Of a stretch of 64,000 nucleotides of DNA, positions 1 through 64,000 are shown in pieces. Every line of letters begins with the position of its first letter. The first letter of the stretch is position 1. The notes beneath the pieces were generated by a model that was not told the origin of the DNA, did not search any database, and was given only the letters and a program-made list of their open reading frames with translations. The stretch is from Lachnospiraceae bacterium. Lineage in GTDB: Bacteria; Bacillota; Clostridia; Lachnospirales; Lachnospiraceae. Both the position numbers and the translations under genes were made by a program. The DNA lies in assembly GCA_017552985.1 (NCBI GenBank), contig JAFZNO010000087.1, forward strand, positions 1-64,000, in the 5' to 3' direction.

Positions 1-2
1 CA

Positions 3-218
3 TTGGTTACAAGCGGCCTTTCAAAGCCGGAGTGCGTAGCTGAACTTATTAAGAACACCTACGGCGAGATTACAAAGTCGCAGATAATGGAGAAATGCCC
101 TGACATAAGTCGCATAACTGTTGAAAGAGCACTTTCAGAACTTCTGTCATCAGAAAGCATTATAAAAATCGGTGGCGGTAGATATACAAAATACGTTTGG
201 AACAGAGACAAGGAATAA
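3..218 (+). CDS. C-terminal end of a Fic-like protein (5' partial)
   Basis: The frame is open to the left edge, so the real start lies outside the window. About 71 residues are visible and read as a winged-helix segment: a helix-turn-helix (TKSQIMEKCPDISRITVERA) followed by a wing, IKIGGGRYTKYVW. This arrangement is common at the C-terminus of Fic/DOC family AMP-transferases, but the HPFxxGNG catalytic motif would be upstream and cannot be seen. The piece just downstream is from a type I restriction subunit, and Fic genes often sit inside such loci, which supports the reading. It could equally be the tail of another wHTH protein. Confidence 0.45.
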   Translation: MVTSGLSKPECVAELIKNTYGEITKSQIMEKCPDISRITVERALSELLSSESIIKIGGGRYTKYVWNRDKE

Positions 219-233
219 AGGAGAATATTCGAA

Positions 234-386
234 TTGGAGCCCGGAGTTCCTACATACGGTTATGAGCTCGGTCAGGCTGTAACCGACGGATATCTTGTTG
301 ATTTCTTGTCTGTAGAAACTAAGCTTAAGTTTATAGAACAGGGAATCGTTTATGCGGACCTTTCCGATGAAGATAGGAAAACATGG
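234..386 (+). pseudogene. Internal fragment of a type I restriction endonuclease R subunit (hsdR)
   Basis: These 51 codons (PTYGYELGQAVTDGYLVDFL, then KFIEQGIVYADLSDEDRKTW) resemble the segment after the helicase motifs of HsdR/DEAD-box type I restriction subunits. Everything N-terminal and C-terminal to it is missing. The frame runs without a stop into the signal peptide of the next gene at 387, so a naive call gives a chimeric 284-residue protein. The junction is abrupt: restriction-enzyme sequence on one side, a lipoprotein leader on the other. I read it as a deletion remnant of a type I R-M locus. Confidence 0.6.
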
Positions 387-1210
387 ATGAAGCGAACGAT
401 ACGCAGTGTGCTTCTCGTAAGTTTGATCGGTATTACGGTAATCAGCGGTTGCGGCAGTGCCACGGATGCGGGAGAGACAGCAGCAACTCCCGTGGAGAGT
501 TCTGCGCAGGACGGCGAGTCGGATTCCATGGAAGCTTCAAAGAGCGACGCAGATCCTAATGGGGAGAATGTGGAAAGGGAACACAGTCCTCGCTATATTT
601 CTGAGAACGTCGTGAAGAAAGACGGAAACACTACGGCAAAAACGGACGGCGCTACTGACCTTCCGCTCCTTTCGAAGGCGGATGCGTGGCCGGAGGAAGT
701 GGTGGAAAGAGAGTCCTGTGATACGGAGATGACCGGCTGCGTGGGAGGTTATTTCCTTATCCCCATGGACGGCGGCATTTACCGATATAAAGAGTATTCC
801 TCTTCCGGTGAAGCCATGACCGCTCAGGGAATCAGCTTAGCGACGGACGACCTGATCTTCACCTGTACGGAGAATGGGATCGGTGAGAATTATGAGATCT
901 ACTCTCTAAAGGCGCATCCTGATAGGGATTTGTTGCTTGCAAATTGTGTTGGGCATGGCAGCATTATTCTTTTCCATGCGCCGGCCCAGAGGATACGGGA
1001 TGGTGAATTGGAGGATGCGCAGGAGAATGACTTTGTCATTCGGAAAATGCTTTTACGAGCTACGAGGCCTATGATAAATACGTGTTGACAAATAATGATC
1101 AGGTGACGTGGAAAGAATTGCAACAATCCACGTTAAGTTCTGTTTCAGGTTATATCCAACATCAGGAAGTATATGGTGAATATGTTTGGAAAGAAGGCAT
1201 GGAACAATAA
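387..1210 (+). pseudogene. Secreted lipoprotein, frameshifted
   Basis: The natural start is the ATG at 387: a basic N-terminus (MKRTIR), a hydrophobic core and lipobox ISGC give a clear lipoprotein signal peptide, followed by a Ser/Glu/Asp-rich linker of about 90 residues. The original frame stops at 1088 after an implausible tail. From about 1031 the +2 frame is open and reads naturally (ENAFTSYEAYDKYVLTNNDQ) to a TAA at 1208-1210. A single indel between about 1031 and 1050 therefore splits one gene. No known domain was recognised. There is no ribosome site of note before 387, and the upstream DNA is a restriction-gene fragment, so expression is doubtful. Confidence 0.6.
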
Positions 1211-1278
1211 AATACGTTCCGTTACGGACTTCTGGAACTGATTTACAGGCTGGAAATGCAAATGGGAGGAAAGAGCAT

Positions 1279-2688
1279 ATGGATTTGCAAAAATACGTGG
1301 ATGGTTTTGGCGCTATGACGTGCATCGTATCCGTTGAGAATCTCGGAAACGGAAAGCGCGGGAAATTCCGCATTGTCACTGGAAACAAACCGTATATCGA
1401 CTCCATAGAACATCCTGCGCCGGGAGCAGAACTGCTGGTCCAAAAGTTCACTCCCAATCAGGAATATACAAACTATCTTACCAGGGATCTCAATTTTGAA
1501 GATTACTGCTATCGGGCAGCGGTTGAAAAACGGTGTCTTAATTCGTACGCCACTGCGGACAGGATACAGGGTGTCTGGTTTAACATGACGTTTCTCCCGG
1601 TGGCCTATGAAGAAGGGAATCTCTGCTATTGTACGTATACCATGGAAATCAACTTTGAGGCTAATCTGGACAGATTGGCGTCGCTTCCTGCTGACGTTAC
1701 GGCGAACGTTATCAAGATATGCTTACAGCTCAGAAGTGCAAAAGAGTTTCATGAAATGATGAATGACGTCATACGCGATATCAGAAACATGTTTGATGCC
1801 GAGCACTGCTGCATTCTTCTTATGGACTCAATCGAAAGGAAGTGCACGGTCCTGTGCGAAGCGCTTTCGGATAACACGGTCCTGACGACAATGAACAAAT
1901 ATAATGATGACGGGTTTTATGACATCGCTGACAGCTGGAAAGACCTGATCGCGGGCAGCAACTGCATCGTCGTAAAAGACGAGCAGGACATGGAAGTTGT
2001 CCGGGAGCGGAATCCCATATGGCATAAGTCGATCACTTCCGCCCATGGAAAAAACATCGTTCTGTTTCCGCTAAAGTTCAGGGAAAAGCTTCTGGGTTAC
2101 ATATGGGCGCTCAACTATGACGTGGCAAGAGCTACCAGCATCAAAGAAACCTTTGAGACCACGGCTTCCATTCTTGCCTCTGCCATAAGTAACTATCTGC
2201 TGATGGAGCGTTTGAAGGTGCTGAGTTCAAAAGATATCCTGACGGGAGTCTTGAACAGAAATGAAATGAATAATTACGTCGATAAGATAAGCATGGATAA
2301 CGCCGCATCCGACGTTTCCGTGGGAGTGGTTTTTGCTGACCTTAACGGATTGAAACGCGTAAATGATCAATATGGGCATAATAAGGGCGATAAACTCTTG
2401 AAAGATGCCGCCAAAGCGATTGAGGAAGTCTTTGACCCGGACGTGATTTACCGGGCGGGCGGGGATGAGTTTGCGATCATTGTAAACGGCATAACGGAAG
2501 AAGAGCTCAACAAGCGGGTGGAAGCCTTAAGGAACGTTTCTCAGAAATACGAACACGTGTGTTTTGCCATTGGACAGAGCTACGAGGCCAGCCAGTCGAA
2601 CGTGAGGCGCGCTTTGAGAATTGCAGATGAGCAGATGTATGAGGATAAACGCCGCTTTTATGATCAGCATCCGGAACTGAAGAGATAG
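1279..2688 (+). CDS. Diguanylate cyclase with GAF-like sensor region
   Basis: Predicted cytoplasmic enzyme that makes cyclic di-GMP from two GTP. The ATG at 1279 is preferred because GGGAGGA lies 9 bases upstream; the frame itself extends further up without a ribosome site. The 469-residue product has an N-terminal region of unknown fold (about 1-140), a GAF-like region (about 145-300) and a C-terminal GGDEF domain (about 310-465). The active-site signature is intact (RAGGDEF). No RxxD inhibitory site stands at the usual position five residues before it, so product inhibition may be weak. The EAL gene begins 12 bases after the stop, giving an opposing enzyme pair in one operon. Confidence 0.85.
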   Translation: MDLQKYVDGFGAMTCIVSVENLGNGKRGKFRIVTGNKPYIDSIEHPAPGAELLVQKFTPNQEYTNYLTRDLNFEDYCYRAAVEKRCLNSYATADRIQGVWFNMTFLPVAYEEGNLCYCTYTMEINFEANLDRLASLPADVTANVIKICLQLRSAKEFHEMMNDVIRDIRNMFDAEHCCILLMDSIERKCTVLCEALSDNTVLTTMNKYNDDGFYDIADSWKDLIAGSNCIVVKDEQDMEVVRERNPIWHKSITSAHGKNIVLFPLKFREKLLGYIWALNYDVARATSIKETFETTASILASAISNYLLMERLKVLSSKDILTGVLNRNEMNNYVDKISMDNAASDVSVGVVFADLNGLKRVNDQYGHNKGDKLLKDAAKAIEEVFDPDVIYRAGGDEFAIIVNGITEEELNKRVEALRNVSQKYEHVCFAIGQSYEASQSNVRRALRIADEQMYEDKRRFYDQHPELKR

Positions 2689-2699
2689 GAGATTATGGA

Positions 2700-3407: not shown

Positions 3408-3427
3408 TGGGTTACCGGCATACCCCT

Positions 3428-4102: not shown

Positions 4103-4151
4103 GCTTTTATCCCCTTGCGTGATTTTGGATGGAACTACTCTCTATAATTTG

Positions 4152-4180
4152 ACTATACCGAAACAAGAGGAAATGGTCAA
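4152..4180 (-). promoter_or_regulatory. Promoter for the MgtC-like gene
   Basis: Read on the minus strand: TTGACC (4180-4175), 17-base spacer, TATAGT (4157-4152). The -35 box pairs with that of the divergent promoter at 4185 to form GGTCAA-GCGG-TTGACC, so the two promoters are packed back to back and one bound protein could control both. Confidence 0.65.
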
Positions 4181-4184
4181 GCGG

Positions 4185-4213: not shown

Positions 4214-4314
4214 AAAACATACGTGGGCTGAACGTTGCGCGGTAATTGCATGCAGTTACTGCGCTTTTTTTGAGAGAGAATCACTGTGGCAGAATGCGCG
4301 GGAGGTATGCGGAA

Positions 4315-5280: not shown

Positions 5281-5298
5281 GATTTGGAGTATAATGTC

Positions 5299-8200
5299 AT
5301 GTTGACGGAAAATCAATTTGAAATTGAAGAGGGAGTCCTGAAGGCATATTTGGGAGCGGGCGCCGAGGCGCAGGTCCCGGAAGGCGTGCATACGATCGGA
5401 GACGGTGCCTTCAAGGGCATGGCGTGGCTCCTGAAAGTGACGCTGCCCTCCTCCATAAAAAGAATCGGGGCAACGGCGTTTAAGGGTTGCCGACAGTTAA
5501 AGGAGATTAACTTCCCGGAGGGCCTTTCGGAGATTGGGGAATACGCATTTCACAGATGTCATCAGATAGAAGAGCTGATCTTCCCCAAGTCCCTGACGAA
5601 GGTGGAGGGCTACGCCTTCCTGTATTGCGACGGTTTAAAGAGAGTCGTGATGGAAGGGCCGGAGCGCCTTGGAAAGGCCGTTTTCTCCCACAATCTTTCG
5701 CTGGAGGAGGTCACCCTAAACAAGAACGTGGATGATTCCAACTTTAGCGAGGAAGTGTTTGAGGGCTGCGTGCATCTCCGGAAGATCACGCTGTCCGGTG
5801 AAACCTACGAGATCAGCAATCTGATCGAGGCCATGAATTCCCATTCGGCTTATCCCGGGGTCATAAAGTCCATCGCCCGGGGCGTATACCATTCCATGGA
5901 GATCGAGGATGGCGCGCTGAGCAAGTTCCACATCAACCTAAAGTCCATCTTTTTGCCGGAAGGGATCACTTCCATCGGAAAGAGCTGCTTTTTTGATAAA
6001 CGAGGGATCGTGAGCATCTCCCTTCCGGAATCCCTTCGGGGGATCAAGGCAAACGCGTTCCTAAACTGTAGCAGCTTAGAGGAGATCACCTTCCGGAATG
6101 AGAACGTGTTGTTGGATGACAGGGCGTTCCGCGGGTGTTGTAATTTGAAAAGGATCTATTTAAAGGACGAGGCATTCCTTTTGGAGGATGAAACGTCCCA
6201 TGAACTGATCAGCCGCATCCGGGATCAGGTGCTCGGGGATTTCTACGTCAGCGGAAGAACCCTGGTCCGCTATATGGGAGACGAGGAGCAGATCCAGATC
6301 CCTAAGGGAGTGGAGATTATCGGCGAGCGTTGTTTTTTTGGCAAGGAGAGGCTCAAGATCGTATTTTGCCCCGACAGCCTTCTGGAGATCCGGGAGCAGG
6401 CCTTTGCGGGCTGCGTTACCCTTCAGAACGTCATGCTTTCGGACAAGCTAAAAAGAATAGAGCGGGAAGCGTTTGCAGAGTGCAAAAAGCTTTTGAAATG
6501 TAATCTTCCCGGATCCGTGGAATACATTGGGGAATATGCGTTCCGGCGCTGCCTTACGCTTAAGCCCTTTGAGCCCTGGCCAGAGAACGCGAGGGTTCAT
6601 TCCCATGCCTTTTATCTGGCAAAACAATTTGCAGGAATGAAAGAAACCATTCAAAGCGTGGATGACGGCATTGCACCCAGCGCATTGCAGGAAGGCCCCC
6701 AACTGATCCCGTCCTATGCCCATGCAAGGCAGGAGGGACTCAAGGTCTTGGAACTGTCGGGGATCCGGGGGATTGGCAAATATGCCTATTCCGCATGCCC
6801 TGACTTAGAAGAGATCGTCATCGACGCGCCGGACTGCGTGATCGAGCGGAATGCATTTTCAAACTGTCCGAAGCTTAGAAAGGTATGTCTTCGCGTTAAG
6901 GAGATGGGAAAAGGCATTTTTTCCTACTGCAGGAATCTGGAAGAAGTCCGTCTGTCCGGGGTTTCCGTTCTGCAGGCGGAGAGCTTTGCCGGATGCTACA
7001 GGCTGTCGAAATTTGAGGCGAAGGAAGTCACGCAGATGGAGGCGCGTTGCTTTGATGAGTGCACGGCCTTGAATGCCTTTGATTTTTCCGGCATCCGGTC
7101 CATCGGCGAGCGTGCCTTTGAACGCTGTGATTCCTTAAAGAGAGTGGAACTGCAGGAAGTGGAGTGCGGCTATCACGCCTTCGCGGACTGTGCCTCCCTG
7201 GAGGCCGTGGCGCTGTCAAAGGATACGGTTCTAAAGAGCGGTGCCTTTATTGGCAGCACCCAGGTGAAAACCATCACCTTCGAGGGCGAAACCTATGAAT
7301 TTTCAAGATTTGCGGACGGCTTGAACCACGTAGGCAATCCCTATCCCCTGCCCGTCCGGGAAGTGATCGCCTCGATCTATTCCTGCTTTGACGTGCGGGA
7401 GCGGAAAATACTGGCTGGCTATGCGCAGGATGGCACGGAGGTCACCATACCGCAGGACGTGGAAGAGATCGGTCAGGACGTGTTCAGGGATCACGTGCGG
7501 CTTCGCAGGATCCATATCCCGGAAAGCGTGAAACTCTTTGGAAGCCACGCATTCTCCATGACCGCATGGCTGGAGGAACAACGAACGAAATCCGAAATGG
7601 TCATGGCAAACGGGGTGCTTTTGGATGGCACGCTCTGTAAGGGAAAAGTGGTGCTGCCTTCCGGCATCAGACGCGTTGCAAGCTGGTGCTTTGCAGGGAA
7701 CGTGAACCTTACGGAACTGGTGATCCCCTCCGACAGGATTGGCATTGAGAGCCTTTCCTTCCGGAATTGCCTGAACCTAAAGAAGATCACGGACTGGGAT
7801 CAGAAGGAGTACGTGCTGACGGACGTCTCAGACCTGGAGACGAAAGGGTATCCGGAACTGATCCAAAGAATCTTTTCTGAATGCATCAACTGTTTCAAAC
7901 TGGACGAAAATAAGAACCTAGTGGAAAGTACCGGAAACATCACGAGACTGACGTTCCCGGAGGGCATTAGGTCCGTCGGCGACGGCGTCTATAAGGATTG
8001 TCACCTGCTGGAGACGATCAATCTTTCCAGCGGTACGGAACGAATTGGAAAGTCTGCCTTTGAAAACAGCAAGTGGTTAAAACGCGTCACAAAGGCGGGG
8101 CACGTTACTGAGATTGGCGCCCAGGCATTTTCCGGCTGCCAGTCCTTAGAATCCATCGACCTGTCAGATTGCCTGCGGGAGCTGGGAAAACGATGCTTTG

Positions 8201-8439
8201 AACACTGCGGGAGTCTTAAGGAGATTCACCTTTCTGATCAACTGGAAGCAATCCCCGAAAGAGCCTTCTTCCGTTGCAAGTCACTGCAAAAGCTTGTGAT
8301 TCCAAAGTCCGTGAAAGTGATCGGGCCGGAGGCCTTCGCATTCTGCGATCAGCTGGAGGAAGTATTGATTCCCGAGGAGACGCAGCTTGGCGAGAGAGCC
8401 TTTGCATACTGTGACCACGTTACCATGCAAAGGTATTGA
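5299..8439 (+). CDS. Giant BspA-type leucine-rich-repeat protein
   Basis: About 1047 residues built almost entirely of BspA-like (LRR_5) repeats of roughly 22-24 residues with the pattern xxIGxxAFxxCxxLxxVxLPxx, seen at least 25 times. The repeats occur in four or five blocks separated by spacers such as those near residues 180, 300, 690 and 860. The ATG at 5299 has GGAG 10 bases upstream. No signal peptide, anchor or sorting motif is visible, unlike many surface BspA proteins, so it is either cytoplasmic or exported by another route. It follows dus closely. All 14 Asp/Asn/Tyr/His-Val junctions I checked use ACGT. Function unknown; probably binding. Confidence 0.8.
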   Translation: MLTENQFEIEEGVLKAYLGAGAEAQVPEGVHTIGDGAFKGMAWLLKVTLPSSIKRIGATAFKGCRQLKEINFPEGLSEIGEYAFHRCHQIEELIFPKSLTKVEGYAFLYCDGLKRVVMEGPERLGKAVFSHNLSLEEVTLNKNVDDSNFSEEVFEGCVHLRKITLSGETYEISNLIEAMNSHSAYPGVIKSIARGVYHSMEIEDGALSKFHINLKSIFLPEGITSIGKSCFFDKRGIVSISLPESLRGIKANAFLNCSSLEEITFRNENVLLDDRAFRGCCNLKRIYLKDEAFLLEDETSHELISRIRDQVLGDFYVSGRTLVRYMGDEEQIQIPKGVEIIGERCFFGKERLKIVFCPDSLLEIREQAFAGCVTLQNVMLSDKLKRIEREAFAECKKLLKCNLPGSVEYIGEYAFRRCLTLKPFEPWPENARVHSHAFYLAKQFAGMKETIQSVDDGIAPSALQEGPQLIPSYAHARQEGLKVLELSGIRGIGKYAYSACPDLEEIVIDAPDCVIERNAFSNCPKLRKVCLRVKEMGKGIFSYCRNLEEVRLSGVSVLQAESFAGCYRLSKFEAKEVTQMEARCFDECTALNAFDFSGIRSIGERAFERCDSLKRVELQEVECGYHAFADCASLEAVALSKDTVLKSGAFIGSTQVKTITFEGETYEFSRFADGLNHVGNPYPLPVREVIASIYSCFDVRERKILAGYAQDGTEVTIPQDVEEIGQDVFRDHVRLRRIHIPESVKLFGSHAFSMTAWLEEQRTKSEMVMANGVLLDGTLCKGKVVLPSGIRRVASWCFAGNVNLTELVIPSDRIGIESLSFRNCLNLKKITDWDQKEYVLTDVSDLETKGYPELIQRIFSECINCFKLDENKNLVESTGNITRLTFPEGIRSVGDGVYKDCHLLETINLSSGTERIGKSAFENSKWLKRVTKAGHVTEIGAQAFSGCQSLESIDLSDCLRELGKRCFEHCGSLKEIHLSDQLEAIPERAFFRCKSLQKLVIPKSVKVIGPEAFAFCDQLEEVLIPEETQLGERAFAYCDHVTMQRY

Positions 8440-36430: not shown

Positions 36431-38365
36431 ATGCCCAAGAATCGGATTGACGACAAGTTCATACAGGACTTTTTTAAGATAGGCGACAGTGAAGAGGACA
36501 AGCAGGAACTAGAGGAGATCAAGAAAAAATTAAAGCGCCAGCAATTTGAGAACGGCAAGGACATTTGCGTCATTGACGGGGAACCGGATTGCATGTATTT
36601 CCTGGAGTCTGGAACAGCCATTGTTTTAAGCCGCGAGGGCGAGCAGATCAACATCATGCATGAGGGACAATATTTCGGCGAATATGGCGTTTTGTCAAAG
36701 CAAAAGCGCCTTTCCACCGTGCGTTCCCTGGGGCGAACCATCGTGTACCGCCTGGATGCTGATGACATGATGGACATTTTGTCGCATCATCCGGACCTGT
36801 ACGGCGAGATGATGAAGCGCGTGTACGGTCAGGTTTCCGGCAAGCATTCGCAGATCCTGGCTCTGTCCGGCATGCGCAAGGGCATTCTGCAGCATCCGAA
36901 GAACCAGACGCCGCTTTCAAAGCGCCGCATGGTGATCCAATATGGCATTCTTGCCTTGATTTATGTTTTGGCGTGGATCTTTGTGCCAAAGGACGCGAAT
37001 GCGCCGGTTTTCTTGCTTCCGCTGATCCTGATGCTGGTCTACGTGCTTGTGACAAAGCGTACCGTGGAATCCCTGATCGTCTCCGGCATGCTGGCGGCAC
37101 TTCTCGTTTACCGGAATGGCATCGCGGCCAGTTACTCTGACGCCATGATAGAGACCATGATGGCATATGACAACGTATGGACGGTATACGTGATGGCGTT
37201 GATGGGAGGCGTGGTCCAGCTCATCGAAGCTTCCGGCGCGGTGACGGCCTTCAAAAAACTCGCTGACAGTAAGGTTAAAAGCCAGCGGGGAATGATGCTC
37301 ACGGCATATGGCATCATGGCGGCAACCTGCATTGACGACGGCCTGAACATGTCCTGCGCGGCCAATTCCACGAACGCCGTTGCCAAGGAACAGGCCATTC
37401 CGAGAGAGAAGACCTCCCTTCTTTACAGCCTGTTGCCTACGGTGCTCAGCTCATTTATCCCCCTTTCCCTTTGGGGCATATTCGTTATTGGTACGCTCAG
37501 CGCCTCGATCAAGGAGAATCCCGTTGGACTGTTCTGTCAGTCCATTCCTTTTAACTTTTTCTCCATTTTGGTAGTGATCTTTATGTTACTATACTGTTTT
37601 GGCAAGCTTCCCCTGACGAAAAGGCTCAAGAATGCCGACAGGCGAGTGAAGGAAGGCGGAAAGCTGTGGCCGGATGGTTCGGAAAAGTATCTGAGCTTAA
37701 ATGAGCCGGAAATGTGGGGCAAGATCATAAACATCATGCTTCCGATCCTTGTGCTTGCCGTAACTTCACTGGCGATCCGTTCCGTCATTGCCGGGGGATT
37801 TATGGTGGACAGCGCGGTAGGACTGACGGCGACGCTGATCTTCATGTTTTTGTTCTACTGTTGGCAGGGATTGCTCACGCCGGAGCAGTTTGTGGAGCAC
37901 CTGGTGGTGGGCATTGCAAATTCCACGCTTGCAATTCTTTTGTACCTTTTGACGATTTGTTTTTCCACGCTTCTTAGCACGCTCCAGCTGACGGAATACT
38001 TTGTTGACGCCCTGGAAGCATTTGGCAAGTTTGGTCCCATCTTCCCGATGGTCATGTTTTTGCTTGCCATGTTCCTGACCGTTGCCTTGGGTTCCTCTTG
38101 GTCCATGTACGCAATCGTTTTCCCGATCGCCGTACACTTTGCCCCTCTTCTTGGCGTGAATCTCGCGCTTTGCGTGGGTGCCATCGCAGGCGCGGGCATT
38201 GCGGGCGAAAAGAACTGTATGTTTACCGCTGACAGCATGAACGTTGGAACGGCCATAGGATGCGATCCGTATGCGGTCCTTCGGGTTCGCGTGAGATACA
38301 GCTTTGTGATCACGGGAATCGCAGCTGCATTCTATTTGGTGGCAGGATTCCTTTGTAAGCCGTGA
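36431..38365 (+). CDS. Cyclic-nucleotide-binding domain fused to an NhaC-type Na+/H+ antiporter
   Basis: A 644-residue fusion. Residues about 20-130 form a cNMP-binding domain of the CRP/CAP fold, with the phosphate-binding cassette region YFGEYGVLSKQKRLSTVRS. Residues about 165-640 form a polytopic NhaC/SLC-like antiporter with about 11 helices, including CIDDGLNMSCAANSTNAVAK and the C-terminal AGAGIAGEKNCMFT. The prediction is ion exchange at the membrane, gated by a cytoplasmic nucleotide. Which nucleotide is unknown; several key contacts of classical cAMP sites are not obvious. A GGGGGG ribosome site precedes the ATG. The Vsr-like gene starts 16 bases downstream. Confidence 0.8.
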   Translation: MPKNRIDDKFIQDFFKIGDSEEDKQELEEIKKKLKRQQFENGKDICVIDGEPDCMYFLESGTAIVLSREGEQINIMHEGQYFGEYGVLSKQKRLSTVRSLGRTIVYRLDADDMMDILSHHPDLYGEMMKRVYGQVSGKHSQILALSGMRKGILQHPKNQTPLSKRRMVIQYGILALIYVLAWIFVPKDANAPVFLLPLILMLVYVLVTKRTVESLIVSGMLAALLVYRNGIAASYSDAMIETMMAYDNVWTVYVMALMGGVVQLIEASGAVTAFKKLADSKVKSQRGMMLTAYGIMAATCIDDGLNMSCAANSTNAVAKEQAIPREKTSLLYSLLPTVLSSFIPLSLWGIFVIGTLSASIKENPVGLFCQSIPFNFFSILVVIFMLLYCFGKLPLTKRLKNADRRVKEGGKLWPDGSEKYLSLNEPEMWGKIINIMLPILVLAVTSLAIRSVIAGGFMVDSAVGLTATLIFMFLFYCWQGLLTPEQFVEHLVVGIANSTLAILLYLLTICFSTLLSTLQLTEYFVDALEAFGKFGPIFPMVMFLLAMFLTVALGSSWSMYAIVFPIAVHFAPLLGVNLALCVGAIAGAGIAGEKNCMFTADSMNVGTAIGCDPYAVLRVRVRYSFVITGIAAAFYLVAGFLCKP

Positions 38366-38381: not shown

Positions 38382-38873
38382 ATGGGGAATAGGGAGAAAA
38401 GACGCCCCGGCCCTGCGAAGAAGGGAAGCGCAAAAGAGGCGCGGCACTACAACATGCAGCGCATCAAGAGCAAGGACACTTCCATTGAGCTAAAGCTCCG
38501 CAAGGCTTTATGGGCAAAGGGTTACCGCTATCGGAAGAACGTAAGGACCCTTCCGGGAGTGCCGGACATTGTTCTGACAAAATATAAGATCGCAATTTTC
38601 TGCGACAGCGAATTCTTTCACGGAAAGGATTGGGAGGTCCTAAAGCCCCAGCTGGAACGCGGCAATAACGCGGAGTTTTGGATCCAAAAGATCACGAACA
38701 CAAAGAGGCGTGACGACGAGGCCAACAAGAAACTTTTGTACCTCGGCTGGACCGTGATCCGCTTTTGGGGAAAGGACATCCTAAAGCACGCAGACGAATG
38801 CGTGAGGGTCGTGGAGGAAACCATTTTCGACATGGAGATGGGAGAGGCGTTGGACGGTTTGGAAAGTGACTAA
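38382..38873 (+). CDS. Vsr-type very-short-patch-repair endonuclease
   Basis: A 163-residue protein matching the Vsr pattern throughout: NMQRIKSKDTSIELKLRKAL (catalytic-type Glu36), LPGVPDIVL (Asp62, the metal ligand), FFHGKDW (His80), FWIQKITNTKRRD and LGWTVIRFWG. E. coli Vsr nicks 5' of the T in T:G mismatches arising from 5-methylcytosine deamination and thus restores C:G. The zinc-binding Cys/His residues of E. coli Vsr are partly absent, as in many Firmicutes homologues. No cytosine methyltransferase gene is adjacent; the neighbours are an antiporter and an ECF sigma. It may be co-transcribed with the antiporter. Confidence 0.85.
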   Translation: MGNREKRRPGPAKKGSAKEARHYNMQRIKSKDTSIELKLRKALWAKGYRYRKNVRTLPGVPDIVLTKYKIAIFCDSEFFHGKDWEVLKPQLERGNNAEFWIQKITNTKRRDDEANKKLLYLGWTVIRFWGKDILKHADECVRVVEETIFDMEMGEALDGLESD

Positions 38874-39000: not shown

Positions 39001-41370
39001 ATGAGAGAGATGAATTATTCCGAACTGGTAAGAATGACAAAGGAAGGGGATGCGAGTGCATTCCGCACGCTGTACGAAGGGACCTGTAACAGGGTTTACT
39101 TTTTGGCAAAGAGCTTTTTGGGAAATGAAGAGGATGCAAGGGACGTTGTGCAGGAGGCTTACGTAACGGCATGGAAAAATATTTCCATGCTAAGTGCCCC
39201 GGAGAGATTCCCGGCATGGATCGAGACGATCGCAACGAATAAGTGCAAGGATTTATACCGGAAAAGGATTCCGACGCCGGTCGACGGCGAGATCCTGGAG
39301 GATCTGGTCAACGAGGAGACGGATTTCCAGCTTCCTGAGGATTACGTTTTGCAGGAAGAAAAGAGAGAGATCCTGTTCCAGATCATGCGGGACGTTCTCA
39401 GCGTCAATCAATACCAGACGGTATTGCTTTATTATTTCAGCAATCTGTCCATCAGCGAAGTTGCGCTGCAGATGGGATGTAACGAGAATGCGGTAAAGAA
39501 CCGCCTGAGCGTATCCAGGGCAAAGCTGAAGGAAGAGATTCTTCGCCTGGAGGAAAAGAAAGGCGTCAAGCTCTATTCGTTTGCGGGCGTACCCATTTTG
39601 GCGCTTATTTTCTCGGAAAGCGCAAAGTGCTGCAGTTTTGCAGAGAGCGAGGCAGTTTACGGAAGCATTACAAATGCGCTTGCAGGGGCTAATGCCATGC
39701 AGGCGGGCACGATCGCCTCTTCGGCGGCCAATGCGGCTGCCGGCGTTGCCGGTAAGGCAGGACGGGCTGCGGAAGCCAATCTCTTAAAGTGGATCATTGG
39801 AGGCCTGGGGGCACTTGCCGCAGTGATCGCGTTGATCGTTGTGATCCCGAAGCTTGGCGGCACAAAGAATCCTGATCAGGAGGGCGAGGTTGCGTCGGCA
39901 TCCACTTCGAAGTCCCAGTCAGGCAAGCAGGAAGACGGAGACCGCAAAGGCGAAGAAGGTAAGGAAGAAGGACGGGAAGCTTTGCCTAAGCTGGAGGAAA
40001 GAGTCATCACGAAGGTTACGTTCAGAAAAGCTTTCACCAGCGGATTATTAACGGTGGAGGGCTCTGACGGCACGTTTGTTACCACGGATAAGGAAAACAA
40101 AGAAGTTGTTGACGAGAAGGGGAATCGCCTGGCATTTGCAGGCAGTTCCCACGTGGAGCTTTTGGGTGATGGCTATTATGGCATTACGGACGGGGACAAT
40201 ACCTTTGTCACCATCGTGAAAGACGATCGGGAGATCCTTACGTTCCCGAGAGTGCAGCGTGACTCGGATTGCGTTTTGACGTATCATGACGGGGTTGTAG
40301 TCTATGATGCAGAGGAGGATAACGTAAAATACCTGGTGGCTTATGACCTTGAGAACAAGAAGGAGCTTTGGAAGGTAAAGGGAAATTCCCCGATCTACGA
40401 GCCGGGTTCCGGTTATATTATTTGCGGCATTGATCAGTTTATGAACTGGCAGTGTGTTTTGGATTTTGATGGCAACGTTTTGTTTGCGGATCCGGCGGGT
40501 AACGTTTACGTAAGACCAACGAATACCCAGTATTTCTACGTGGAATATCACGGCGACAGAATTGAAGTTTATGACGGCAGCAAGAAGATCAATGAGCTGT
40601 CCCTGAAGCCGGAAGCGGATCATTACTACGAATATGCGGGAATTACGACAACCGGGCTGATCGTGGTGCGTGACGGGGCGAAAAAGTATTACGCAATGGA
40701 TCATGACCTAAACGTTGTCTGGGAAATGGATGGGTTTAAGTACGCTGCCGCTTCCAAGTCGGATGAGCTTATGACGACGTATAAGACGTTTGGACCTGAC
40801 GACGTATTTTACGCGCGGAATTGTTTCAAGACGGGAGACTCAAGCTACGTGGGGGCAGATGCCATTTTCTTTGGTGACGGAACGGTCATGAAGCTGCTTA
40901 GCGGCAGAACGGCGGCTGGATCCATCGAAACCTATGGCTTACCGCAGGATACCCGTTTTGTGTGCGGAGGAATCACCAAAACGGACGCATCCGGTGAGCA
41001 CAACGTCAACGTGATCGTCAGCCTTATGAACGGAAAGACCTATGAAGGCGCGGATGACGAGTATATTGCCTTGAAATATGAATCGCCAAACGGAAGATAC
41101 CTGATCGCCACCCAGAACAGGAAGAATCAGGTTTTTGACGAGAATCTGAACGTGATTTATGAAAGTGACCAGGCGGTCTATGAGATGAAGCCCCTCAACG
41201 ACAAATGCGTGATTGAATATGCCAATAAGGCGAAGGACGAAATCTACGTGGTTGACCTTGAGACCAAAGAGAGAACCAGACTGGACGTGGAGGGAACCTA
41301 TTATAACAACAACGCCCGGGCAATCATAACGCATGCGGGTGAAGCATATAATCTGTATGAGTTCGAATAA
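39001..41370 (+). CDS. ECF sigma factor fused to a membrane-anchored extracytoplasmic domain
   Basis: A 789-residue fusion. Residues about 1-185 are a complete ECF sigma factor: region 2 (EDARDVVQEAYVTAWKNI) and region 4 (LSISEVALQMGCNENAVKNR). An Ala-rich stretch follows, then one membrane helix at about 262-285 (IIGGLGALAAVIALIVVI), a Ser/Lys/Glu linker, and about 450 outward residues made of repeating beta-strand units (YYGITDGDNTF, GNVLFADPAGNVYV) like a beta-propeller. The sigma factor is thus tethered to the membrane by its own sensor, and no separate anti-sigma gene is present. Release by proteolysis is inferred. An autoregulatory promoter is possible at 38892. Confidence 0.8.
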   Translation: MREMNYSELVRMTKEGDASAFRTLYEGTCNRVYFLAKSFLGNEEDARDVVQEAYVTAWKNISMLSAPERFPAWIETIATNKCKDLYRKRIPTPVDGEILEDLVNEETDFQLPEDYVLQEEKREILFQIMRDVLSVNQYQTVLLYYFSNLSISEVALQMGCNENAVKNRLSVSRAKLKEEILRLEEKKGVKLYSFAGVPILALIFSESAKCCSFAESEAVYGSITNALAGANAMQAGTIASSAANAAAGVAGKAGRAAEANLLKWIIGGLGALAAVIALIVVIPKLGGTKNPDQEGEVASASTSKSQSGKQEDGDRKGEEGKEEGREALPKLEERVITKVTFRKAFTSGLLTVEGSDGTFVTTDKENKEVVDEKGNRLAFAGSSHVELLGDGYYGITDGDNTFVTIVKDDREILTFPRVQRDSDCVLTYHDGVVVYDAEEDNVKYLVAYDLENKKELWKVKGNSPIYEPGSGYIICGIDQFMNWQCVLDFDGNVLFADPAGNVYVRPTNTQYFYVEYHGDRIEVYDGSKKINELSLKPEADHYYEYAGITTTGLIVVRDGAKKYYAMDHDLNVVWEMDGFKYAAASKSDELMTTYKTFGPDDVFYARNCFKTGDSSYVGADAIFFGDGTVMKLLSGRTAAGSIETYGLPQDTRFVCGGITKTDASGEHNVNVIVSLMNGKTYEGADDEYIALKYESPNGRYLIATQNRKNQVFDENLNVIYESDQAVYEMKPLNDKCVIEYANKAKDEIYVVDLETKERTRLDVEGTYYNNNARAIITHAGEAYNLYEFE

Positions 41371-55292: not shown

Positions 55293-55994
55293 ATGAGTTT
55301 TGTCGAAATCAAGAACGTGAAAAAGCATTACGGCGAGGGCGAGGCCAGGGCGGCCGTGCTGACGGGCGTGGACCTCAGCATCGAGAAAGGGGAGCTTTGT
55401 GTATTGCTTGGTCCCTCCGGAAGCGGAAAGTCAACGCTTCTGAACATCATTGGCGGCATCGATGACGCGGACGAGGGGTATGTTGTGATCAACGGGGAAA
55501 AGACCGCTGACATGAATGAAAAGAGGCTCACCCAGTACCGCAGAAACCACTTAGGATATGTTTTTCAGATGTATAATCTGATCCCGAACCTTACGGTGCG
55601 CGAGAACGTGGAGGTTGGCGCGTACCTTAGCAAAAAGCCCCTTAAGGTTGATGAACTGTTAAAAACCCTTGGCCTTTACGAGCACAGAAACAAGCTGCCG
55701 AACCAGCTCTCCGGCGGTCAGCAGCAGCGCACTGCCATTGGCCGCGCGGTCATCAAGAACCCTGACATTTTGCTTTGCGATGAGCCGACGGGCGCCTTGG
55801 ATTACAACACTTCGAAGGAAATCTTAGCTCTTCTCGAGCGAATCAATCGTGAGTATGGAAACACTATCATCATGGTGACGCACAACGATGCGCTGAAAAA
55901 CATGGCGGACCGCGTGGTGAAGCTGCGCGACGGCCGCATCAGCCGCAATTACCTCAATGAGAAGCGGATGCCCGTTTCTGAGATTGAGTGGTAA
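55293..55994 (+). CDS. MacB/LolD-type ABC ATPase
   Basis: A 233-residue ATPase with Walker A GPSGSGKST, Q-loop VFQMYNLIP, signature LSGGQQQR, Walker B LLCDEPTGALD and switch His in VTHNDA. This is the type paired with FtsX-like permeases. GAAAGGAG precedes the ATG. Tyr-Val junctions here use ATGT (55480, 55558) as well as ACGT, unlike neighbouring genes, suggesting a different genomic origin. It is preceded by the manganese-type riboswitch and terminator and followed 10 bases later by its permease. Confidence 0.9.
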   Translation: MSFVEIKNVKKHYGEGEARAAVLTGVDLSIEKGELCVLLGPSGSGKSTLLNIIGGIDDADEGYVVINGEKTADMNEKRLTQYRRNHLGYVFQMYNLIPNLTVRENVEVGAYLSKKPLKVDELLKTLGLYEHRNKLPNQLSGGQQQRTAIGRAVIKNPDILLCDEPTGALDYNTSKEILALLERINREYGNTIIMVTHNDALKNMADRVVKLRDGRISRNYLNEKRMPVSEIEW

Positions 55995-56004
55995 GGAGGC
56001 GCCC

Positions 56005-58320
56005 ATGAGAAACCCAATGAATCGCAGATACCTTAGGGAACTAAAGGCAGACTTTGGAAAATATCTTGTGATCTTTTTGTTTATCATCATGGTCGTCTCG
56101 GTGGTTTCAAGCTTCCTTGTCGCAAATGCCGGCGTTGCGAAGGCATATTATGGCGCCATGGAGAAAAACCATGTGGAGAGCGGCCACCTGGCCTTCAATG
56201 TTCGCCCGGACGACGAGCTTTTGGAGCGGATTTCCTCCAAGGCGAAGATCACTTTTTATCCGGCGGACTATTTTGAAGAGGAAAACGATGGCGTGACCAT
56301 GCGCGTCTATCGCTTAGGGAGCGACGTCAATCTCCCGGAACTCATGGAAGGGCGGCTCCCTGAGGCGCCTGACGAGATCGCCATCGACAATCTGCACTCC
56401 TTAAACGCAGGGATAAAAATCGGCGACCGCATTCAGGTCGACGGGCATTTGGTGACGGTCACGGGCTTTGTGGCGCTTCCCAATTACACGGCGCTCTTTA
56501 AGGACAATGCCGACCTGATGTTTGACATCCAGGGCTTTGGCGTCGGCGTGATGTCTGAGGAGGGGTTCGATGCGTTTTCCTCCGAGCACGTGACGATCGG
56601 ATATGCGTGGACATATGATGAAAAGCCCGAAACGGACAAGGAAAAGAACGACGCGGCCCAGAAGGTCCTCGAGGCCCTTCGCGAGGAGCTGACTGAGGTC
56701 AATACAAAGATCATCATGCGTGCCATGCAAGGCGAGAAGGATCTGACCATGCTTGAGGTCACGGACTTTGTGCCGGGCCATGAGAACAAGGCGATCAATT
56801 TCGCGGGCGAAGACATGACGGGCGACAGCGCCTCCATCTCCGTTTTCTTATATATTGTCGTGGGCGTTCTTGCTTTCATTGTGGCCGTGACGACGCTGAA
56901 TACGCTTTCGAAGGAGGCAACCGTCATCGGAACCCTTCGCGCATCTGGCTATACGCGCGGCGAAATGATCCGTCATTATCTGGTGCTTCCCTTCGCATCC
57001 TTTTTTGTCGGCATGGCAGTCGGGAACCTTTTGGGCTATACCGTCATGCGCGATTTCATGCTGGGCGTCTACCGTTCCATGTATTCCTTCGGCAGGGCCG
57101 AGACGCTGTGGAACCGGGAAGCATTTCTGAAGACGACGCTGATTCCGAGCCTGATCATGATCACGATCAATTACGTGATCCTTGCCTGGAAGCTGCGCAT
57201 CAAACCCTTACGCTTCCTGCGCAGGGAGATTTCGGGCCGCGAAAGAAAGCGCGCCATGCGCCTTTCCCGCAAGATCCCCTTCACTTGGAGATTCCGCATC
57301 CGCATTATCATTCAGAACATGTCCAATTACGTGATGCTGGTCATCGGCGTGATATTAGCGGGCGCGATCATCATCTTCGGATTAATGTTCCAGCCGCTTC
57401 TCGACGAGGTTTCAAGGCGGATCGCGGACACGCCGATCAGCCGTTACCAGTATATACTCAAGTCGCCGGAGGATGTTTTGGATGAGGCGGCTGAGAAGTT
57501 TGCGCTTGCTTCGTTGGAGACGACGCGCAGGGACTTCAAGACGGATGAGATCTCGGTTTACGGGGTTTCTGAGGGCAGCCGGTATGTCAAAAAGGAGATT
57601 CCCGAGAACCAGGCGCTTTTGTCGAATGGTTACATGGAGAAATATGGCGTGGAGGAGGGTGATCGCGTCAGCCTTTATGACAAATATGCGGACAAGACTT
57701 ACGAATTTACCGTAGCGGGCGAATATCCTTACGAGGCTTCCCTGGCGGTTTTCATGAATTTGGGTGAGTTCAATGAGATGTTCGAGAAGACGCCTGATTA
57801 CTACAGCGGGTATTTTTCGGACCGCGAGCTGGAGGGCCTGACCGAGTCCAACGTATACGTGAAGATTGACAGCGCAAGCCTTGGAGGCCTTGCGACGCAG
57901 CTTTGGGAGTCCTTCGCGGGCATCATGGGGCCCGTGCGCTGGTTTGGCGTGATCATGTTTGTCCTCATGGTATATCTTCTCGCCAAGCAGATCATCGAGC
58001 GGAATCAGACAAGCATTTCCATGACGAAGATTCTTGGCTTTTCCAATGGAGAGATTGGCGGCCTTTATATCGCGTCGACCACCATCGTCGTTGTCGCGAG
58101 CCTGTTTTTGGCTATTCCTCTGGTTGACCGGCTTCTTCGCCTAATCTTCGAAAACTATCTCTATAAGCGCGTGAGTGGCTTCCTGCCTTACTGTGTAAGC
58201 AACGACTGCTATGTTAAAATGGTCCTTCTTGGCATCGCAAGCTACGCTGCCGTCGTGATTCTGCAGCTCCTCAAGATCCGCGCCATCAAAAAGAGCGACG
58301 CACTCAAGACGCTAGAGTAA
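56005..58320 (+). CDS. FtsX-type ABC permease
   Basis: A 771-residue membrane protein. The ATG at 56005 follows AAGGAGG. It has an N-terminal helix, an extracytoplasmic region of about 240 residues, three helices near 295-400, a second N-terminal-type helix near 450, another outer domain, and three C-terminal helices (from about 650). This is the duplicated FtsX layout of large permeases. With the ATPase it probably forms a type VII ABC mechanotransmitter or lipid/peptide exporter. Val junctions with ATGT are frequent (56171, 56198, 57473, 57585, 58210), again unlike the rest of the window. Confidence 0.88.
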   Translation: MRNPMNRRYLRELKADFGKYLVIFLFIIMVVSVVSSFLVANAGVAKAYYGAMEKNHVESGHLAFNVRPDDELLERISSKAKITFYPADYFEEENDGVTMRVYRLGSDVNLPELMEGRLPEAPDEIAIDNLHSLNAGIKIGDRIQVDGHLVTVTGFVALPNYTALFKDNADLMFDIQGFGVGVMSEEGFDAFSSEHVTIGYAWTYDEKPETDKEKNDAAQKVLEALREELTEVNTKIIMRAMQGEKDLTMLEVTDFVPGHENKAINFAGEDMTGDSASISVFLYIVVGVLAFIVAVTTLNTLSKEATVIGTLRASGYTRGEMIRHYLVLPFASFFVGMAVGNLLGYTVMRDFMLGVYRSMYSFGRAETLWNREAFLKTTLIPSLIMITINYVILAWKLRIKPLRFLRREISGRERKRAMRLSRKIPFTWRFRIRIIIQNMSNYVMLVIGVILAGAIIIFGLMFQPLLDEVSRRIADTPISRYQYILKSPEDVLDEAAEKFALASLETTRRDFKTDEISVYGVSEGSRYVKKEIPENQALLSNGYMEKYGVEEGDRVSLYDKYADKTYEFTVAGEYPYEASLAVFMNLGEFNEMFEKTPDYYSGYFSDRELEGLTESNVYVKIDSASLGGLATQLWESFAGIMGPVRWFGVIMFVLMVYLLAKQIIERNQTSISMTKILGFSNGEIGGLYIASTTIVVVASLFLAIPLVDRLLRLIFENYLYKRVSGFLPYCVSNDCYVKMVLLGIASYAAVVILQLLKIRAIKKSDALKTLE

Positions 58321-58370: not shown

Positions 58371-58379
58371 GGTGACTTT

Positions 58380-61097: not shown

Positions 61098-61102
61098 CCA
61101 AA

Positions 61103-61585: not shown

Positions 61586-61793
61586 TCCGGGAAGTGAAAA
61601 GTAACGATCGGTTGCGGCAAACGCATGCACGTTATTTGCCTTGAACGTGAAATGACGGTGCGGAAACGGAGACGATGGATTTAGAAAGTATGAAAAAATA
61701 ACAATGTATGAAACTTTTTAAAATAAACCCCGTCTATATGGATGGAACCGCCTGAAATAAGGCATGGAAAACAGATAAGACGAGGGAAGGGAA

Positions 61794-63395: not shown

Positions 63396-63422
63396 CGGAA
63401 CGGGCATCTAAATTGCAGATTT

Positions 63423-63463
63423 CCCGCGAACCTTTACATAATAAGGGTTCGCGGGATTTTTTT
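63423..63463 (+). terminator. Intrinsic terminator of the lipoprotein gene
   Basis: Stem CCCGCGAACCTT / AAGGGTTCGCGGG, then ATTTTTTT. Nearly identical to the terminator at 58380. Confidence 0.9.
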
Positions 63464-63557
63464 ATTGCCTTTTCCATTAAAAATAGCTATCTAGAGGGGG
63501 AATACGCGGTCCAAGATGATGAATTAAAAAGGATTTCTTTGGGAAAATAAATAAAAA

Positions 63558-63589
63558 TTGTCGGAAAAAGTAAGAAAACGTGGTATGAT
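63558..63589 (+). promoter_or_regulatory. Promoter of the 3'-end sensor gene
   Basis: Extended -10 TGGTATGAT (TATGAT at 63584-63589) with a TTGTCG at 63558, 20 bases away; the TG motif may compensate for the long spacer. Confidence 0.45.
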
Positions 63590-63656
63590 AGATTTGGGTA
63601 TGTTTTAAAATGCGTGGTACTCATGCGCATCAACGAGAATGAAAGAGTGAGACAAA

Positions 63657-64000
63657 ATGAAAAAAGGCATGATGATCATTGGAAACATCGTGATTTTTAT
63701 TGCGATTTTGGCTTTTGTTTTGCTAGACGTCGAAAGTGAACGGCAGAGGATGCTTGCATCCAAAACGGAAGCCTTTGAGAATATGACCGTGGCCATGGAG
63801 AGCGTGACTACGAATTATCTTTTGGGAGAGCAGCAGGTCTGTAACAGCTGGGCAAACTACGTCAATGCGAACCAGATGACCGAAGAGGAAGCGATCGCCT
63901 ACGTGCGTGATTCCGTAAGCACTCCGGGAGTCATGGCGCACGTCTTGTTCCTGGAGAACGGGGAATTCTCCGGTCTGTCCACCATGGCCAGCGCCGCCAA
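63657..64000 (+). CDS. N-terminus of a membrane sensor protein (3' partial)
   Basis: An open frame from ATG 63657 to the window end (114 codons). It begins with a basic residue pair and a membrane helix (MIIGNIVIFIAILAFVLLDV), followed by an outward, helix-rich region (VTTNYLLGEQQVCNSWANYV) like the start of a Cache-type sensor domain found in front of GGDEF, kinase or chemotaxis modules. The output domain lies beyond the window. All four Asp/Tyr/His-Val junctions I checked use ACGT. No strong ribosome site; GAGTGAG is weakly complementary. Confidence 0.6.
   Translation, partial: MKKGMMIIGNIVIFIAILAFVLLDVESERQRMLASKTEAFENMTVAMESVTTNYLLGEQQVCNSWANYVNANQMTEEEAIAYVRDSVSTPGVMAHVLFLENGEFSGLSTMASAA

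Follow-up and report, generated by a model that had tools for sequence, protein, structure and literature searches.

Genome-wide replacement of VTGT by VCGT in a Lachnospiraceae bacterium, probably driven by a Vsr endonuclease and a cytosine methyltransferase of new specificity

In the genome of a Lachnospiraceae bacterium (GenBank assembly GCA_017552985.1), VTGT (V, any base but T) has almost entirely been replaced by VCGT at synonymous sites. The replacement is directional, strand symmetric and at the DNA level: C-to-T change is suppressed at the motif, and T is short-lived there. We consider it very likely that a Dcm/Vsr-like pair of new specificity, consisting of a Vsr mismatch endonuclease and a C5-cytosine methyltransferase, drives VTGT to VCGT. 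In the following, the window is the 64,000-nucleotide stretch that was analyzed (contig JAFZNO010000087.1, positions 1 to 64,000), carriers are the genomes of the genus that have both genes, and a hyphen within a motif marks a codon boundary.

Results

Codon junctions in the window and in the genome

An earlier note on this DNA had claimed that junctions between NAY codons and Val codons read almost exclusively ACGT and not ATGT, and we found this to be true both in the window and genome-wide. The NAY-GT junctions of the window had 17 T and 278 C (17/295 T), versus 460 T and 405 C in the control NAY codons before GA, GC or GG (odds ratio, 0.054; P = 7e-55). T was present at 36 of 619 NVY-GT junctions. 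When synonymous codons were shuffled as the reference, junction ATGT was the most depleted of the 4-mer/frame combinations with more than 20 expected occurrences (24 seen, 151.2 expected, z = -19.7; the shuffle used a cruder gene set, which gives 24 in place of 17). An Rfam scan of the window gave no match at the gathering score.

The sigma-factor fusion gene had ACGT at every junction, as the note had said (Table 1). In the leucine-rich-repeat gene the 14 ACGT junctions it reported were all counted, but a single NAT-GT at 5295 had been overlooked; this site is 11 bases past the called TTG start, and the start call may be wrong. Nine of the ten exceptions listed in the note were located within a few bases, while that at 1180 is outside a called gene. 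The list omitted 5295 and seven exceptions at 55481-58212.

Table 1. Features of the window and the methyltransferase gene outside it
Feature	Position	Strand	Evidence or remark
VTGT to VCGT (and ACAB to ACGB) replacement at synonymous sites	1..64000	.	Genome-wide, throughout window; Thr ACA-B also low
Called gene with highest residual VTGT of the window	234..1088	+	VTGT 5/8; ACAB 3/11; no Pfam match
LRR (BspA-type) gene	5284..8439	+	PF13306; NAC-GT 14, NAT-GT 1
Vsr (very short patch repair) mismatch endonuclease, 163 aa	38382..38873	+	PF03852, 93.5 bits (cut-off 27); TIGR00632, 120 bits (cut-off 97.85)
ECF sigma-factor fusion gene	39001..41370	+	PF04542, PF08281; NAC-GT 18, NAT-GT 0
ABC transporter and FtsX-like permease gene pair	55293..58320	+	7 of 17 NAT-GT exceptions; VTGT 3/9 and 6/31
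Orphan C5-cytosine methyltransferase, outside window, beside murG	G000:C108:36448-37521	-	PF00145, E = 4.6e-72; TIGR00675, 218 bits (cut-off 100.65)

We then counted the same junctions, for which the note had proposed a genome-wide comparison with controls, in 791 kb of the 3.86-Mb source genome (window included; 727 kb beyond the window). T was found at 226 of 3,434 NAY-GT junctions in the sample and at 209 of 3,139 beyond the window, versus 58% T before other G-starting codons; the depletion of T thus held, and equality with the controls was not seen. In the same sample, CTGT (159/2,015 T) and GTGT (139/1,922 T) were as low as ATGT, whereas TTGT was not depleted (1,454/2,702 T). The motif is therefore VTGT. 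The note had been wrong to call the effect specific to ATGT, and its control, TTTGTC, belongs to the spared context. The effect was also seen in a nonsynonymous frame, where GTG/(GTG+GCG) before T was 588/1,310 in the source genome versus 401/683 in non-carriers, with 0.53 versus 0.54 before other bases. The density of ACGT in coding DNA was 5.8 per kb in the source genome (4,094 in 710 kb) versus 1.2 (398 in 327 kb) in non-carriers of the genus.

A weaker VTAT effect accompanied the VTGT effect. Ile ATA was halved (0.095 versus 0.209), the drop being only slightly larger before C, G or T than before A. VTAT may be a weak Vsr context. Lys AAA and Leu TTA were lower than in relatives before all bases, unrelated to the motif, which counts against the Vsr pair.

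Strand symmetry, intergenic DNA and direction of change

The earlier note had cautioned that a translational codon-pair effect was possible and that intergenic ATGT was not rare, and had suggested checks of the complementary strand and of intergenic DNA. On the complementary strand, Thr ACA/(ACA+ACG) before C, G or T was 0.05-0.12 in the source genome versus 0.40-0.75 in non-carriers of the genus, and before A it was 0.33 versus 0.62. The NCR codons of Ala, Pro and Ser showed little difference from eight genomes of the family. In an intergenic screen of 64 contexts, AYGT, CYGT and GYGT ranked 1 to 3 (z = -13.2, -7.3 and -6.6; that of AYGT is inflated because the palindromic ACGT is counted twice), and the remaining contexts ranged from -4.4 to +5.5. 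Since the reverse complement is depleted and the VTGT contexts rank first of 64 between genes, where a codon-pair bias should be confined to the frame, the effect is not one of codon pairs.

The intergenic T-fraction of AYGT was 0.39 in the pooled carriers versus 0.78 in non-carriers of the genus, so that depletion is present there too, if less strong than in coding DNA. That it is much weaker (0.39 versus 0.07) counts against the Vsr pair. The C/T difference was about 0.06 in intergenic DNA versus 0.235 at synonymous control sites, and slow intergenic divergence may be the cause of the weaker effect.

We also examined codons in which VTGT or ACGT could be chosen as a word. Arg CGT was 0.16 after A versus 0.20-0.21 after C, G or T, and CCGT and GCGT were saturated equally to ACGT; the selection for ACGT sites that the note had offered is unsupported. 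Cys TGT was 0.34-0.38 after A, C or G versus 0.34 after T, so V-TGT is not exchanged for V-TGC, and avoidance of VTGT words was rejected. GTG before T occurred 63 times in the window, a low count against the 109.7 expected from the shuffle. We do not read this as word avoidance, because the GTG share of Val codons before T is low in relatives too (0.24, versus 0.20 in the source genome).

On the branches of the source genome and of the genome G070, C-to-T change occurred at 11 of 200 VY-GT sites versus 59 of 164 VY-GA or VY-GC sites. At VY-GT, T in the outgroup with C in the ingroup was found 46 times and the reverse once, versus 90 and 41 times in the controls. Where either genome had T, 48 of 59 VY-GT sites differed, versus 368 of 978 control sites. 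The change is thus directional, from T to C, in a fixed short context and on both strands, as very short patch repair would have it. C-to-T change was suppressed as strongly at VY-AT (12/240), a context beyond a model of ACGT alone, and this counts against the Vsr pair as proposed.

The Vsr gene and the methyltransferase

A PF03852 search of the source genome gave only one match, the Vsr gene of the window, and its product aligned with E. coli Vsr (1cw0) at E = 1.2e-14. The profile scores and the alignment place it in the Vsr family with conserved catalytic residues: E36, D62, H80 and D111 align with E25, D51, H69 and D97 of E. coli Vsr. T63 and H64 of the E. coli enzyme align with C74 and D75 here, which counts against the Vsr pair.

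The C5-cytosine methyltransferase is likewise the single PF00145 match in the source genome and is unlinked to the Vsr gene. In 21 loci that have a methyltransferase homolog (54-67%) but lack a Vsr match, the T-fraction of NAY-GT was 0.87-1.00, and NAC-GT was absent (exactly 1.00) in 14 of them. This rarity of NAC-GT points to ACGT as the methyltransferase target, and from these sequences ACGT is probably also the target of the carriers' own enzyme. In 25 pooled loci of genomes of this kind, the T-fractions of AYGT, CYGT and GYGT were 0.98, 0.59 and 0.52, versus 0.79, 0.42 and 0.48 in non-carriers of the genus. The methyltransferase alone goes with the opposite state, ACGT loss, and was rejected as the cause.

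In these methyltransferase-homolog genomes the value for Arg CGT following A is down to 0.05, with a shift to CGC and CGA, which favours restriction-driven word avoidance over deamination. A counterpoint is the sister genome G138, which has a 61% methyltransferase homolog and no Vsr match: its NAY-GT junctions were 60/60 T, and the assembly (79% complete) had no match to one putative restriction endonuclease. A recurrent gene of unknown family, a putative restriction endonuclease, was found within two genes of the methyltransferase homolog in 8 of 18 neighbourhoods, and the eight align. Two such neighbour-gene families, distinct from a third type at L194 and L201, had no match in the nine carriers (E = 1e-5; completeness of the assemblies, 84-100%).

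Four loci have a Vsr-like gene near the methyltransferase homolog. Two of them escape ACGT loss (L178, 10/47 and L196, 24/52 T at NAY-GT; methyltransferase homolog 73%, Vsr-like gene 38% and 2.5-3.5 kb away), and two hardly do (L197, 39/46 and L200, 13/16, with the Vsr-like gene adjacent).

Distribution among relatives

Among 138 genomes of the genus, nine were carriers, with the methyltransferase at at least 85% and Vsr at at least 79% in the same nine. The log odds ran from -2.95 to -1.28 in the carriers. Their range was -0.83 to +0.74 among the 26 sampled non-carriers of the genus and -0.42 to +0.67 among 17 genomes from other genera in the family. The comparison of relatives with and without the Vsr-like gene proposed in the note therefore separated them: all nine carriers showed the effect and the 26 sampled non-carriers did not, with G098 a weak exception. 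The T-fraction of AYGT varied from 0.04 to 0.45 among the carriers, which counts against the Vsr pair. The carriers form one clade in a murG tree (support, 100/98), so gene and effect have one origin. Within the clade the two genes never separate, and any other clade-specific gene would fit equally, which counts against the Vsr pair.

A Vsr match at E = 1e-8 was present in 46 of the 138 genomes. Sampled genomes with 61-74% Vsr homologs had no VTGT effect, apart from a weak NTGT effect in G098, and the idea that any Vsr will do was rejected on that ground. The screen behind the G098 signal also gave z = -5.1 for CYGT in G087, a genome without a Vsr match. When contexts were screened genome by genome in others that have a Vsr (about 20 kb per genome), nothing reached the scale of the nine carriers.

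Discussion

Of the options raised in the earlier note, the best supported is its first, mutation or repair that turns T into C in one specific context, in connection with which the note pointed to the Vsr-like gene. We infer Vsr as the agent, and the mismatch sources, ACGT methylation and action on VTAT are equally part of the proposal. The methyltransferase would methylate ACGT. Vsr would nick at the T of a T:G mismatch in VTGT, where the preceding base is not T, the following one is G or, less well, A, and the one after that is T; the nicked patch would be refilled with C (very short patch repair, T:G to C:G). When T:G comes from deaminated 5-methylcytosine or from T misinserted opposite G, repair would prevent C-to-T change; when G is misinserted opposite a template T, repair would fix a T-to-C change. 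Over evolutionary time both routes would shift VTGT towards VCGT on either strand, and genes would come to have NAC-GTN instead of NAT-GTN.

Vsr could instead be a bystander while another clade-specific agent acting on DNA drives T to C at VTGT, for example a thymine-DNA glycosylase specific for T:G, or an unusual variant of a polymerase or of mismatch repair. We consider this unlikely. In its favour, the effect is at the DNA level whichever agent acts, and the co-occurrence of the genes reflects a single origin. However, the Vsr family is known for context-dependent T:G to C:G repair, this Vsr is the genome's only Vsr match and is conserved in 9/9 carriers, and L178 and L196, with both homologs, escape ACGT loss, though L197 and L200 hardly do.

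Translational selection against NNT-GTN could draw on the strongest signal being at codon junctions and the weaker one between genes. We regard it as highly improbable, since complementary-strand Thr codons follow the same flanking rule, the same three contexts lead the intergenic ranking, NTT-GT is spared, and the 26 sampled non-carriers lack the effect, with one weak exception. Equally improbable is selection for ACGT sites, which might serve as methylation signals, or avoidance of ATGT words imposed by restriction. The ACGT excess in coding DNA speaks for this reading, but CCGT and GCGT saturate equally, Arg CGT is not enriched after A, V-TGT is not exchanged, and two putative restriction endonucleases had no match in the nine carriers.

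The proposed Vsr pair resembles Dcm/Vsr of Escherichia coli (CCWGG/CTWGG), which likewise combines a Vsr-family endonuclease with a C5 methyltransferase and repairs T:G to C:G within a short sequence. The probable targets here are ACGT (methyltransferase) and VTGT (Vsr) rather than CCWGG, the genes are unlinked, and CTGT and GTGT, outside the probable methylation target, are rewritten equally strongly. Because the motif is common here, codon choice has changed genome-wide, unlike in E. coli. In passages of PMC4687349 and PMC5591236 that refer to Bhagwat and McClelland (1992), Dcm/Vsr is held to have altered oligonucleotide abundance (CTAG loss). In a 50-kb stretch of E. coli we counted 3/68 T at CYAG versus 69/229 at other NYAG, but CYAG is no specific control, because non-carriers of the genus are equally low (24/545).

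ScmA/VsrA of Caulobacter crescentus (PMC12907096) also pairs a solitary cytosine methyltransferase with a Vsr-like protein that is linked to it in function but not genetically; the target, YGCCGGCR, is unlike that here. The words "underrepresent," "overrepresent" and "enriched" are absent from the main text of the paper, so a composition effect seems undescribed there. V.NgoAXIII and V.NgoAXIV of Neisseria gonorrhoeae likewise have more than one T:G context; according to the main text of PMC6116569, an in vitro study in which the string ACGT is absent, one acts in all contexts and the other in specific ones. PMC4702332 merely names a vsr gene in passing. Our literature search, with most subscription papers beyond its reach, listed no account of Vsr rewriting VTGT or ACGT.

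The putative ACGT restriction-modification systems (L161, L185, L190 and others) have methyltransferases 54-73% identical to that of the carriers and probably the same target. ACGT is nearly absent in most of them, whereas the carriers have an ACGT excess and no match to the recurrent putative-endonuclease gene. The T-fraction of NAY-GT is about 0.8 in non-carriers of the genus, about 1.0 in loci that have the methylase family but lack a Vsr match, and 0.07 in the source genome with both. We think it more likely than not that a Vsr of relaxed context (VTGT, with weak action on VTAT) is a chronic directional mutator of the whole genome, well beyond the methyltransferase-modified sites. On this reading, genomes of one ACGT methylase lineage would have almost no ACGT where a cognate Vsr is not at work and be saturated with it where one is, so that one repair gene reverses the motif equilibrium between sister lineages.

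In most mutation spectra the traces of many processes blur together. The present case, with a single motif, clade and candidate gene pair, is a clean natural experiment on the way in which base composition and codon choice are set by a repair enzyme. It offers a reading of Vsr specificities directly from genomes, T still present at the motif is a possible marker of recently imported genes, and the case warns that a strong codon-junction bias is not necessarily translational. In these gut bacteria, one repair gene may have respelled the whole genome.

Depletion of VTGT at codon junctions

Genes of Lachnospiraceae bacterium GCA_017552985.1 (3.86 Mb, 137 contigs; the window is G000:C121:1-64000) were called by script with a two-round ORF caller, and third-position T and C were counted for each following dinucleotide (V is A, C or G; Y is T or C; a hyphen marks a codon junction; T-fraction is T/(T+C)). 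In the window, NAY-GT had 17 T and 278 C, whereas NAY before GA, GC or GG had 460 T and 405 C, which bears out the earlier note that this junction is almost always ACGT there. The bias was also present in the 727 kb sampled outside the window (209 T and 2,930 C, versus 6,003 T and 4,434 C in the G-starting controls). Of all 4-mer/frame combinations expected more than 20 times when synonymous codons in the window were shuffled, junction ATGT was the most depleted (24 observed, 151.2 expected, z = -19.7). Counting E. coli junctions in this way gave 94 T in 163 NAY-GT.

Over 791 kb of the genome, the T-fraction was 0.066 for AYGT, 0.079 for CYGT, 0.072 for GYGT and 0.538 for TYGT, versus 0.38-0.68 for AY, CY and GY before GA and GC. 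The depleted motif is VTGT. The effect had seemed specific to ATGT in the earlier note because the control used there, TTTGTC, is the spared context; CTGT and GTGT are equally low. Among coding third positions, AYGT, CYGT and GYGT were the most T-depleted contexts, followed by CYAT, AYAT and GYAT.

Within the window, an ABC transporter/FtsX permease gene pair accounts for 7 of 17 NAT-GT junctions, and may be a recent import in which rewriting is incomplete. A called gene with no Pfam match has the highest residual VTGT of the window (5/8).

Co-occurrence with Vsr and methyltransferase genes

The C5 methyltransferase is found at at least 85% identity in 9 of 138 genus genomes, and the same nine (the carriers) have the window Vsr at at least 79%; the next-best genus homologs reach 61-63% and up to 74%, respectively. 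The log odds of T at VY-GT versus VY-GA/GC were -2.95 to -1.28 in all nine carriers, -0.83 to +0.74 in 26 sampled genus non-carriers and -0.42 to +0.67 in 17 genomes from other genera, the genomes compared being mostly metagenome assemblies and many relatives being sampled at only about 20 kb. In a murG tree of 30 genomes the carriers form one clade (support 100/98; nearest G138, then G190), so the co-occurrence of genes and effect has a single origin. The regions holding the two genes align among this genome and the carriers G070 and G077, and both genes are therefore probably long resident. In this assembly they are on separate contigs; in G104 about 108 kb lies between them.

The alignment of the window Vsr to its E. 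coli counterpart spanned residues 18-131 (E = 1.2e-14). The window protein keeps the acidic and histidine residues that we take to be catalytic in E. coli Vsr, and has C74 and D75 where the E. coli enzyme presumably has T63 and H64. The protein encoded directly upstream of vsr has cyclic-nucleotide-binding and Na+/H+ antiporter-family domains.

In G098 (loci L082, L253 and L254), the lowest non-carrier, a Vsr homolog of 62% identity is encoded near another C5 methyltransferase, and all four NTGT contexts are mildly depleted (AYGT 65/143 T, TYGT 26/88 T). G098 is possibly an independent second case, with a signal near the noise of the screen.

Coordinates of the genes discussed
Feature	Location	Strand	Remark
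Vsr endonuclease gene	window 38382-38873		sole Vsr match in the genome
C5 methyltransferase gene	G000:C108, beside murG		sole C5 methyltransferase match in the genome
Gene directly upstream of vsr	window 36431-38365
ABC transporter/FtsX permease gene pair	window 55293-58320
Called gene with highest residual VTGT	window 234-1088
Recurrent methyltransferase neighbor	L185:11877-12716	-	about 275-290 aa
Recurrent methyltransferase neighbor	L161:9869-10711	+	about 275-290 aa
Recurrent methyltransferase neighbor	L190:11119-11946	+	about 275-290 aa; five more members
Further recurrent neighbor type	L183:11745-12467	-
Further recurrent neighbor type	L194:11034-11834	-

Replacement on both strands and in intergenic DNA

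The complement of VTGT to VCGT is ACAB to ACGB (B is C, G or T), which is read synonymously as Thr ACA versus ACG. The ACA fraction before C, G and T was 0.052, 0.051 and 0.116, versus 0.421, 0.399 and 0.753 in genus non-carriers, so that the complementary-strand check proposed in the earlier note gave the same bias; with A following, which corresponds to TTGT on the other strand, the values were 0.329 and 0.617. Ala, Pro and Ser NCR codons (R is A or G) were used much as in eight family genomes. Before all four bases, Lys AAA and Leu TTA were lower than in those genomes, which is a codon preference unrelated to the motif.

A screen of 64 contexts on both strands of intergenic DNA covered 97 kb in six carriers and 38 kb in non-carriers. 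The T-fraction in carriers versus non-carriers was 0.39 versus 0.78 for AYGT, 0.40 versus 0.59 for CYGT and 0.35 versus 0.57 for GYGT. These three contexts were the most T-depleted of the 64. The effect is weaker there than in coding DNA. Since C/T divergence from G070 was about 0.06 in intergenic DNA versus 0.235 at synonymous control sites, constraint probably holds many intergenic sites. The replacement acts on DNA.

VTAT at codon junctions was also depleted in this genome and the other carriers (CYAT 0.04, GYAT 0.11, AYAT 0.26; non-carriers 0.25, 0.42 and 0.68), and Ile ATA was halved in them. In intergenic DNA of carriers, CYAT and GYAT were shifted and AYAT was unshifted.

Direction of the change

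Depletion of VTGT could reflect avoidance of the word or preference for ACGT. However, following A, C or G, Cys codons did not shift from TGT to TGC, and Arg CGT showed no enrichment after A. The Val fraction GTG/(GTG+GCG) fell before T (588/1,310, versus 401/683 in non-carriers) and only there (0.53 versus 0.54 before other bases), as expected from T-to-C pressure at nonsynonymous sites. When changes on the branches to this genome and G070 were polarized with G077 or G104, outgroups distant enough at synonymous sites to make single events uncertain, C-to-T change was found at 11 of 200 VY-GT sites versus 59 of 164 VY-GA/GC controls; it was suppressed as much at VY-AT (12/240). T-to-C change at VY-GT comprised four events versus one retained T, a number too small for a rate. 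Outgroup T with ingroup C occurred 46 times at VY-GT and the reverse once, versus 90 and 41 in controls. Between this genome and G070, 48 of 59 VY-GT sites with T in either differed (controls 368/978), showing that T is short-lived at the motif. The change is directed from T to C.

Likely target of the methyltransferase

The METHYLTRANSFERASE evidence points to ACGT as the target of the methyltransferase. A scan of named genomes for its homologs gave 39 loci, 21 of which (Clostridia, Oscillospiraceae, Treponema, Selenomonas, Saccharibacteria, Helicobacter, Campylobacter and others by record title) exceed 9 kb, have a 54-67% homolog and have no Vsr match in the locus. NAC-GT was absent from 14 of the 21, and the remainder were 0.87-0.98 T; all NAY-GT were T in L181 (72/72) and L202 (44/44, 54% GC), as in the sister genome G138 (60/60). 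CYGT and GYGT T-fractions were mostly below AYGT, except in the most AT-rich loci. Pooling 25 loci, including G103 and G133, gave 0.98 for AYGT, 0.59 for CYGT and 0.52 for GYGT, and 37 coding ACGT in 370 kb, versus 4,094 in 710 kb in this genome and 398 in 327 kb in genus non-carriers. ACGT was missing from all three frames of called genes in L181, L183, L184, L185, L202 and others, and CCGT and GCGT showed no similar depletion in the pool.

Five homolog-bearing genomes have a Vsr outside the locus, which presumably serves other methylases. Four loci have a Vsr-like gene close to the methyltransferase, and their NAY-GT T-fractions were 0.21 (L178), 0.46 (L196), 0.85 (L197) and 0.81 (L200); thus two of the four escape ACGT loss and two hardly do.

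A putative restriction partner recurs within two genes of the methyltransferase in 8 of 18 neighborhoods read. The one member tested had no Pfam or NCBIfam match, and the gene is possibly an undescribed restriction endonuclease family. It is present in G103 and G133, and a search of the nine carriers and G138 found no match.

Probable VSP repair with a new specificity

PMC4687349 and PMC5591236 already describe effects of very short patch (VSP) repair on oligonucleotide abundance, with loss of CTAG, and PMC6116569 describes relaxed-context Vsr enzymes. An unlinked pair of solitary methylase and Vsr appears in PMC12907096, and the carriers resemble that system in that the two genes are unlinked. 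Our literature search found no Vsr with a VTGT context, none paired with an ACGT methylase, and no case in which Vsr changes a frequent codon junction throughout a genome.

The simplest account of the directed change is VSP repair with a new specificity. Vsr would restore C at T:G mismatches in VTGT, and its repair would shield ACGT against m5C deamination; it may also act weakly at VTAT. When G is misinserted opposite a template T, Vsr would convert that T to C, and such conversion would explain why CTGT and GTGT, where methylation is not required, are rewritten as strongly as ATGT.
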